A DNA stretch of 49,958 bases from Patescibacteria group bacterium (GTDB lineage Bacteria; Patescibacteriota; Patescibacteriia; Patescibacteriales; UBA12465): the NCBI GenBank assembly GCA_028692765.1, contig JAQUWT010000009.1:1-49958 (forward strand). Direction: 5' to 3'. The notes beneath the pieces were generated by a model, which was not told the origin of the DNA, did no database searches, and saw only the letters and a list, made by a program, of their open reading frames with translations. Made by a program: the position numbers and the translations under genes. Position 1 is the stretch's first letter, and every line of letters starts with the position of its first letter. This document shows, piece by piece, positions 1,834 through 35,371 of the stretch.

Positions 1834-2910
1834 TTATTTTATTATATTAATTATTTCAATATCAGGTATGCATCTATCCCCAGAACAATCAATGCCATTT
1901 ATTATTCCTTTGATAGTGTAGATATCGTTATAAAAATTAGAATTTTTATTAAAGTCAACTTTATAATAATTTAAAATATAGTTTACCCACAGACCATCCC
2001 AATTAGGATTAATTGAGGTTATATCAGCGTTTTTAGTTTCTTCGGAATTAGCCCAGAACCAATCACAGGGCTTGTTTATATCTACTTCTGTGTGGTTGTC
2101 ATTAATAATACAAAACTTTATTCCAGTAATTTGAGAATAATAAGCACTTATTTTGCCTCGCCATTGAATTTTTTGACCTTCATATTTACTTTTATAGTGG
2201 CTATAATTTTTTGTTTCCTCGATTTTAGATTTAACAACGTCATCATAAGCAAGGGTTGTATTATTAGATTCCATTGAATCACCACAAAGTTGATTTATAA
2301 ATATTTTTTGTATATTTTCTATACTCTGTTGCGGGGTATATTCATTAAAAGACCTTAAATCAAAATAATTATTATTGTTTTTATCTTTATCTCCATATAC
2401 CCATGCATAATAAAGTTTATCAGGATAATCTTTAAACATAAGCACTATTGAAGATCCGCCACCAACGGCAATATTAGTTTCTAGAACTATAAACTCACTT
2501 TTTAATATTTCCTTGCTGTATTTTTCTAGATCAGAATAAGCGGTGTCTTCGAAGTGTTGATTTAAAAATAAGCCAGGCAAGGAGTCCGACTTATTAATAG
2601 CTGAGTAATTATTATTTGCAAATTTATTTAGTGTAAATTTTAAGTATTTTACAAAAGGATCATTCTTTATTAATTTATTGTACCCAATCTCTTCTGCACT
2701 AGGCTCAGTAAACTTCATCATTTCACATAAAGACAGCTTTGTGTTGTTTTTACTATTTAACTCATTATTATCTAAATTGTTTGACAATGGAATGTCTGTA
2801 ATATTTGTAATTTTATTTTTTATTTTATAAAAAGACGACCAGTTAATTATTATAATTAAACTAATGCAAAAAATTAAAGCTATTATTAAAATATTTTGTT
2901 TTTTAATCAT
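1834..2910 (-). CDS. membrane-anchored extracytoplasmic protein with possible OB-fold domain
   Basis: 358 residues. Residues 5-25 form an uncleaved signal-anchor (ILIIALIFCISLIIIINW) after a short KK N-terminus, so most of the protein should lie outside the membrane. The region around residues 135-215 is rich in beta strands. From about residue 240 the pattern KYEGQKIQWRGKIS, a strand stretch, and TIKGIINGIDCSG looks like an OB-fold (a strand with WRGKI, returning as IKGII). This fold assignment is tentative. The ATG overlaps the end of the upstream gene by 8 bases, showing an operon. No catalytic motif was seen. Confidence 0.6.
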   Translation of the reverse strand: MIKKQNILIIALIFCISLIIIINWSSFYKIKNKITNITDIPLSNNLDNNELNSKNNTKLSLCEMMKFTEPSAEEIGYNKLIKNDPFVKYLKFTLNKFANNNYSAINKSDSLPGLFLNQHFEDTAYSDLEKYSKEILKSEFIVLETNIAVGGGSSIVLMFKDYPDKLYYAWVYGDKDKNNNNYFDLRSFNEYTPQQSIENIQKIFINQLCGDSMESNNTTLAYDDVVKSKIEETKNYSHYKSKYEGQKIQWRGKISAYYSQITGIKFCIINDNHTEVDINKPCDWFWANSEETKNADITSINPNWDGLWVNYILNYYKVDFNKNSNFYNDIYTIKGIINGIDCSGDRCIPDIEIINIIK

Positions 2911-3205
2911 GTTTATCTTTTTTTAATTCTTTTAAAAATAAGGCGATTTTTATTTCACGTTCTAATTTTTGAGCCTTAAGATCCTCATCTCCATCCTTGT
3001 ATATAAAATTAATAAAATAATTAGATAATCCGTCCCCAAAGGATTTAATTATAAAAGCACCTTTATGTTGTGCCCACTCTGTAAGATCTGATGTTTTTAT
3101 AAAATAAGTGTTTTCAATTTTTAAATTTGGAAGCTTATTATTTATCACGCCAGTGATTGCCTCATATGTATTTTCTACAGCGATCACTATTTTTTTATTG
3201 GGCAT
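2903..3205 (-). CDS. hypothetical small soluble protein
   Basis: 100 residues, starting MPNKKIVIAVENTYEAI. An alpha/beta pattern (IVIAVENTY, AFIIKSFGDGL, helix) with a lysine-rich C-terminal helix is visible. It lacks a signal peptide. It is the first gene of the four-gene minus-strand operon, and its 3' end overlaps the next start by 8 bases, so the two products are probably made in step. Family not recognised. Confidence 0.5.
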   Translation of the reverse strand: MPNKKIVIAVENTYEAITGVINNKLPNLKIENTYFIKTSDLTEWAQHKGAFIIKSFGDGLSNYFINFIYKDGDEDLKAQKLEREIKIALFLKELKKDKHD

Positions 3206-3257
3206 ATTTTGCTAGTTATAAACTAATTATTATTACGCAAATTTTAAAAAGTAAATA

Positions 3258-3333
3258 GCTAAGCCGTATACAGTCCTATTTTCAAAAATAACTGCTTAGC
3301 AATGGGGTAAGACACAAAACAGGACAAACGGCT
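3258..3333. repeat. imperfect inverted repeat in intergenic region (structured RNA or DNA candidate)
   Basis: AGCCGTATACAGTCCT (3262-3277) is matched by AGGACAAACGGCT (3321-3333) as an imperfect inverted pair. A second pair, GCTAAG (3258-3263) and CTTAGC (3295-3300), overlaps it, so the two foldings compete. No ORF fits here. With 3431-3557 it makes up most of the 486-base gap between the unknown operon and the defence operon. Confidence 0.4.
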
Positions 3334-3430
3334 CAAATTTGACAGAATAAGCCGTCAAAACGAGCTAACTTATTGCTTGTATGGTGAAAGATATTTTATT
3401 ACCAACAAAAAAACGGACACCCGACCTAGT

Positions 3431-3557
3431 TGCGAAACTACACTTTGGGTATCCGTAAAGGATCCTACTTATGCTGGTCGGTGTGCCCGTTCCATTGCAC
3501 AAATAGGATAAATGCCAAGATTGACAAAATCCTTTACAGATTAAGTATAGTTTCGCA
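3431..3557. repeat. 127-bp element bounded by 29/33-bp inverted repeats
   Basis: The left arm (3431-3463) begins TGCGAAACTACACTT and ends ATCCGTAAAGGAT. The reverse complement of 3529-3557 begins TGCGAAACTATACTT and ends ATCTGTAAAGGAT. The arms differ by about three substitutions and one 4-base indel. About 65 bases lie between the arms. Inside, GGTCGGTGTGCCCGT (3475-3490) can pair with ACGGACACCCGACC just left of the element (3413-3426), an alternative fold, and TGTGC/GCACA forms a small hairpin. No transposase is near. Nature unknown. Confidence 0.6.
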
Positions 3558-3605
3558 CCTATATTTTAGTTTAAAATTAATTATTTTTCAAGAAAAATAT
3601 AAATA

Positions 3606-34960: not shown

Positions 34961-35345
34961 GGGGATGCCGGGCATCGATAATAAGACCTGCTTTTAGATA
35001 TTCAAGACGGGTTTAGGTTACACCGTAAAAATAACCAAAAACATACATGCCAAAAATACTGGCAGGGCGTTTACTTGGAAAGTTCCGAGTTTCGCTCCCG
35101 TTATGGCTTAATTAAAAAATAGCTGTAACCATCGGCGCGGGGAGGCTTCAGCTCCGTCAACCGGTGTCATAATTTGAAGCTTTGAAAATTTCAGTCCTCT
35201 CCTGGAGTTTTCGAGACAAAGAGAGGTGGCCGGCTCTGCTTTTGTCCGGTTTCCGATAGTGTCGGCGACTCCAATAAATCGGACTATTTTTGTAAATATA
35301 TCTAAGGGCACTTGTTAGACATGGGTTCAACTCCCATCATCTCCA
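34961..35345 (+). ncRNA. ssrA: tmRNA (transfer-messenger RNA)
   Basis: About 385 nt. The acceptor stem is GGGGATG (34961-34967) paired with CATCTCC (35338-35344), and the T-arm is ATGGG-TTCAACT-CCCAT. Helix 2 is seen as TAGATAT / ATATCTA. No CCA is encoded. The tag reading frame runs through about 35034-35111 and ends ...FAPVMA then TAA (35109-35111); the resume codon is uncertain (ACC at 35034 or GCC at 35049 are candidates). Adjacent smpB supports the call. The usual ALAA ending is absent. Confidence 0.9.
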
Positions 35346-35371
35346 CATTTTTTGTTAATATCTTTAATTTG

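Follow-up and report, generated by a model that had tools for sequence, protein, structure and literature searches.

The stretch of DNA analysed here, a window of 49,958 nucleotides from the Patescibacteria contig JAQUWT010000009.1, carries a structured RNA of about 150 nt on its minus strand (window 3560 to 3407), which is near certainly one of 23 members found of a structured RNA family. The family is real and, set against Rfam 15 and the literature, new and previously uncatalogued, and it very probably serves as an attenuator-like regulatory leader of prophage cargo and defence genes. As to how it operates, we consider it rather likely that the RNA is a cis-acting 5' leader, or attenuator, of these genes, in which a pseudoknot between the apical loop and the 3' tail forms the terminator stem.

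Architecture of the RNA

The long, nearly matching inverted repeats noticed in a preliminary description of this DNA were recovered by repeat search as two blocks, 3427-3445 with 3543-3561 (17/19) and 3451-3463 with 3529-3541 (12/13), with a small internal loop in between. Read from the minus strand, the element folds at -63.8 kcal/mol (z = -7.7, none of 200 shuffles being as good), and from the plus strand far more poorly, at -43.1 kcal/mol (z = -3.3). The functional strand is the minus strand, along which a promoter is followed by a rod with a small three-way junction, a tail and a T-run.

3586-3591, minus strand: -35 hexamer TTGAAA, with a 17-nt spacer to the -10 hexamer (spacing identical in 22 of 23 members)
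3563-3568, minus strand: -10 hexamer TAAAAT, ending 2 nt before position 1 of the RNA model (exact distance and spacing in 20 of 23)
3407-3560, minus strand: structured RNA, comprising the model span 3409-3560 and the remaining T-run (covariance-model match of 128.1 bits, model R2)
3543-3557, minus strand: helix P1, 5' arm (both sides change in 13 of 14 P1 pairs within the family)
3431-3445, minus strand: helix P1, 3' arm (family covariation, folding)
3529-3539, minus strand: helix P2, 5' arm (7 of 10 P2 pairs change on both sides)
3452-3462, minus strand: helix P2, 3' arm (family covariation, folding)
3514-3525, minus strand: small hairpin P2a of the three-way junction, variable and covarying (7 of 7 pairs)
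3497-3508, minus strand: helix P3, 5' arm (12 of 12 P3 pairs change on both sides)
3463-3474, minus strand: helix P3, 3' arm (family covariation, folding)
3476-3489, minus strand: conserved apical loop CGGGCACACCGACC, the partner of the tail (94.5% of loop-tail cells paired in 23 members)
3414-3426, minus strand: nearly invariant 3' tail GGTCGGGTGTCCG, complementary to the apical loop
3407-3413, minus strand: T-run (TTTTTTT) directly 3' of the tail, the presumed termination point (T-run in 23 of 23 members)

A second pairing, reported earlier between the 3475-3490 region and 3413-3426, is likewise present, the loop at 3489-3476 (CGGGCACACCGACC) matching the tail at 3426-3414 (GGTCGGGTGTCCG) in a duplex of -25.2 kcal/mol (p about 0.001). 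The two folds had been described as mutually exclusive, which holds for purely nested alternatives of the window copy (-62.4 vs -48.2 kcal/mol). Topologically, however, the loop-tail pairing is a pseudoknot on the main fold, i.e. both pairings can coexist and need not exclude each other.

Distribution and covariation of the family

A DNA search for other copies uncovered one further copy in the same genome (C2), which thereby holds two, 77% identical over the conserved half, and others in relatives that belong to several families of the order. Two of the copies found in this manner, the window copy not among them, served to build a covariance model (R1), which scores the window copy at 93.6 bits (cmsearch). 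Within the order it matches 14 of 111 genomes, and in a phylum sample 3 of 380; a second model (R2) matches 13 of 381 genomes of a class sample. In the seven other genomes of the genus the RNA was found in none (0/7), hence the distribution is patchy. The hosts are Patescibacteria of the Ca. Falkowbacteria type, and two copies assigned to other phyla, both on short contigs, are probably mislabelled. When copies were scanned against Rfam 15, neither the gathering score nor relaxed E-value limits (10 in one scan, 1 in another) brought up more than chance matches, and no description of the family was found in literature searches. IMG/VR scans with loop-plus-tail, tail-only and loop-only patterns yielded no true member, the single tail match (L056) lacking the RNA body.

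Across the 23 members, 94.2% of cells are paired and 40 of 56 pairs change on both sides, counts that derive from an alignment fitted to the model structure and are inflated by related sequences. Shuffles average 22.4 such pairs and 0 of 500 reach 40, and slid controls give 14-18. Eleven members, each folded as a single sequence, independently gave the same rod. The sequence of the loop-tail helix hardly varies, and one of its 13 pairs changes on both sides in the fitted alignment; loop and tail are complementary at p < 0.01 in 21 of 23 members (dinucleotide shuffles), and matching changes are visible by eye in L082 (CTGAC/GTCAG) and L051 (GATC/GATC). Upstream, the promoter keeps a near-fixed distance to the RNA, with the same position in 20 of 23 members. 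The tail also has a second candidate partner, the segment just after the T-run, with p < 0.01 in 8 of 23 members; as a universal partner this segment was rejected, being significant in only these eight copies and in 2 of 25 copies of LOOT RNA (see below).

Prophage setting and cargo genes

Most copies that can be placed lie at the end of serine-integrase prophages, either divergent from the integrase or just inside a tRNA-Ser. The divergent serine integrase (PHROG integrase, E = 1.6e-64) is located about 95-125 bp upstream of the RNA in L036, L041, L044, L047, L049, L079 and L080. In L040, L043, L046 and L050 a tRNA-Ser instead ends 106-166 bp upstream, a position typical of the end of an integrated element, which suggests that these elements integrate at tRNA-Ser. 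The anticodons of these tRNA-Ser differ (tga, gga and gct). Terminase and ParB/methylase genes are present 3' of the RNA in several copies, and C2 is part of a prophage with tRNA-Ser, RNA, cargo, integrase and terminase.

No integrase was found near the window copy before the contig end. This copy is located left of an acyltransferase gene, and in genus mates the stretch beside the acyltransferase, before SpoU-dnaA, is variable and looks like a defence hotspot. One genus mate (G001; L164:9840-11743) has an AbiEii-family gene in this variable spot, with a possible AbiEi-like partner. According to PADLOC, the defence neighbours of the RNA comprise type III R-M (L043, L054 and L082), type I R-M (L047) and, directly upstream of the RNA, a CBASS-type patatin-like phospholipase with a nucleotide cyclase (L045:3006-5332, G015), while the window holds an N6 methylase with HsdS-like and PDC-S02 proteins. 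The RNA is not a component of one defence system, as had been considered, but its prophage cargo slots are often shared with R-M or CBASS genes. Elsewhere, the window contains a tmRNA (34961-35346) with the predicted tag AKNTGRAFTWKVPSFAPVMA, the end of which is unlike the usual LAA.

A same-strand, ATG-started ORF begins 3-66 nt past the T-run in 21 of the 23 copies, the exceptions being the window copy (203 nt) and L050. The shortest distances are found in L082 (3 nt), where the RNA leads a type III R-M methylase, and in L040 (14), L048 (16), L046 (17) and L055 (18). With 3-18 nt there is no room for a separate promoter, hence such genes are reached by read-through of the RNA. In the window, two cargo genes follow.

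2903-3205, minus strand: first cargo gene, 100 aa, starting 203 nt past the T-run, no match in Pfam or PHROG
1834-2910, minus strand: second cargo gene, 358 aa, membrane-anchored as judged by eye

In its C-terminal part, the 358-aa protein shares 52% identity with one of the cargo genes that follow the L048 RNA copy, and the cargo of the family includes zinc-ribbon membrane proteins, bPH_2 'membrane-flanked' proteins and a secreted SNase, among others. Further inverted repeats are situated between the T-run and the first gene of the window (3250-3365), with three AGCCGT copies and arms near AGCCGTTTGTCCTGTTTT / AAAATAGGACTGTATACGGCT; they are perhaps an insertion that explains the 203-nt gap. 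In L050, no ATG-started ORF is found close after the T-run. About 48 bp past it, a homologue of the membrane-flanked cargo gene of L043 appears to have ATA at the position of the L043 ATG, pointing to a non-standard start or a decaying gene.

LOOT RNA in the same slot

The order was searched with the integrase, and the same slot was inspected where the new RNA is absent. In L118 (2984-3102) and L119 (7544-7663), the slot between integrase and cargo gene is occupied by LOOT RNA (Rfam RF03000), which was reportedly first described in a 2017 paper on 224 candidate RNAs. Rfam lists it as 'Gene; sRNA' and assigns no function. Between the LOOT-led cargo gene of L118 and its L047 counterpart behind the new RNA, the identity is 43%, and an integrase of the same kind adjoins both. 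LOOT was detected in 21 of 109 genomes of the order, usually with a same-strand gene 24-162 nt downstream. Its apical loop is complementary to a 3' tail running into a T-run (p < 0.01 in 16 of 25 copies); the Rfam match stops before this tail (L118: 2984-3102), the loop-complementary tail and T-run being located just beyond. About 25 further LOOT loci (L122-L151) likewise display the loop-tail-T-run design ahead of prophage cargo genes.

Scanning the LOOT model against copies of the new family gave no match at the gathering score or at E-values up to 10 or up to 1. The new RNA is an analogue of LOOT that by model falls outside it. That two unrelated RNAs have slot, cargo and design in common speaks more strongly than any other finding for loop-tail pairing at the T-run as the functional part.

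Discussion

Combining the covariation with the position of the RNA ahead of prophage genes, we propose the following mechanism. From a promoter placed about at the foot of P1, the nascent transcript folds into P1-P2-(P2a)-P3, as the covarying pairs show. The exposed P3 loop then pairs with the nearly invariant 3' tail in a 13-bp helix, which from the observed pairing and position abuts the T-run. This pseudoknot would act as the stem of an intrinsic terminator, so that transcription stops before the cargo gene. Anything that keeps the loop off the tail, be it a ligand, a protein, an RNA or kinetics, would allow the polymerase to reach the downstream gene, whether accessory, lysogenic-conversion or defence. 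In some members, the segment after the T-run is complementary to the tail and might, by pairing with it, exclude the pseudoknot; as this partner appears only after read-through, it may hold the read-through state and would be unable itself to prevent termination. We infer that transcription is ended by the loop-tail helix, and that control is exerted by allowing or blocking this step. As in intrinsic terminators, a G+C-rich stem is directly followed by a T-run, the stem being a long-range pseudoknot and not a local hairpin, and as in riboswitches, a conserved, covarying structure forms the 5' leader of a presumably regulated gene. The downstream genes suggest no common metabolite. Among the four suggestions of the preliminary description, a switch-like RNA is favoured by the conserved and covarying structure, by the competing tail partners in part of the family and by the cargo gene directly downstream, and the RNA looks made for turning such genes on or off. 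Of the outcomes that would have spoken against the preliminary description, a lack of other copies, of conservation in relatives and of covariation, none was borne out.

Several observations count against the attenuator. The near-invariance of the loop-tail helix leaves it little covariation of its own. P1 and P2 are long and the linker from P1 to the tail measures 0-5 nt, hence an intramolecular pseudoknot requires the RNA to bend sharply or to open in part; once P1 and P2 have formed, the tail would have to fold back along the rod, making intermolecular pairing or a partial opening of P1 possible. In addition, 203 nt separate the window copy from its gene, an ATG-started ORF is lacking close to the L050 copy, most copies lack the second partner, and LOOT, the closest analogue, is classed as an sRNA by Rfam.

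This classification agrees with an alternative that we regard as rather unlikely, although it deserves attention, i.e. that the RNA acts in trans, as a prophage sRNA equipped with a promoter and terminator of its own, and that the cargo gene owes its expression to read-through alone. Loop and tail, both conserved, would then be the working ends, for target pairing or protein binding, for example in superinfection immunity like the phage P4 CI RNA. The RNA does have its own promoter and T-run, and loop and tail are its most conserved parts, beyond what pairing alone needs. However, an independent sRNA does not require a same-strand gene, which is found within 66 nt in 21 of 23 copies and within 18 nt in five, and no shared target was identified. 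The geometric difficulty of joining loop and tail within one molecule, together with the three-way junction and the terminase genes near several copies, would fit a phage RNA of the scaffold or packaging type. In such an RNA the loop of one molecule would pair with the 3' tail of another, forming dimers or rings, and cargo transcription would be a side effect. The model for such intermolecular, loop-mediated pairing is the phi29 pRNA, in which loops pair between subunits. We consider this improbable, as no Rfam match to any phage RNA family was obtained, phi29-type pRNA included, some copies have no terminase in view, and the T-run and the adjacent gene would go unexplained.

By far the least probable reading is that the inverted repeats act as DNA, i.e. 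as a MITE remnant or a recombination or attachment site. It can draw on the location of the RNA where elements end: four loci (L040, L043, L046 and L050) have it 100-170 bp from tRNA-Ser, and others about 100 bp from an integrase gene. The arm sequences nevertheless diverge widely between copies with the pairing kept, G-U pairs included, which indicates selection on RNA; the fold is far better on the minus strand, and the region shared beside the integrase lies outside the RNA and is present also where the RNA is absent. A DNA-level element is thus largely refuted by covariation, and MITE, attachment site and recombination site were rejected on covariation combined with the minus-strand bias. 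The MITE-type remnant and the recombination site suggested earlier are also at odds with pairs that covary instead of arms that are copied, and with the promoter and T-run shared by the copies. A MITE would moreover be expected as near-identical non-coding copies flanked by terminal inverted repeats and target-site duplications; the own genome holds only the two copies described above, and it is structure rather than sequence that is conserved.

Returning to the pseudoknot attenuator, a more tentative extension would be that Patescibacteria prophages gate lysogenic-conversion and defence cargo through convergent leader RNAs, the new family and LOOT, by means of a conditional 'pseudoknot terminator' coupled to the state of the phage or of the infection. 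In any case, a well-supported structured RNA family is added in a bacterial group whose gene regulation is almost unstudied, and the orphan LOOT RNA gains a testable function through the common architecture and cargo gene. The findings suggest RNA attenuation as a means by which prophages control morons and R-M genes. If the loop-tail pseudoknot indeed terminates transcription, it would represent an unusual form of intrinsic terminator.

Among known systems, LOOT (RF03000) resembles the new RNA in its integrase-cargo slot in related prophages, homologous cargo, loop-tail pairing and T-run. It consists, however, of several short hairpins, whereas the new RNA is one long rod with a three-way junction, without a sequence or structure-model match between them. 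The phage HK022 put RNA and the phage P4 CI RNA are, like the new RNA, phage-encoded structured RNAs at the start of a transcript that control transcription beyond, with sequences compared through Rfam only. The put RNA promotes read-through and is not known to have a T-run, and the P4 CI RNA acts on replication genes. Riboswitch and attenuator leaders with pseudoknots (ZTP, fluoride and preQ1-I) share with the new RNA a structured 5' leader, a pseudoknot and a T-run ahead of the gene. In these classes the pseudoknot is generally part of the ligand-binding domain and a separate hairpin terminates; in the new RNA, by contrast, the downstream genes have no common pathway and it is the loop-tail helix itself that abuts the T-run.
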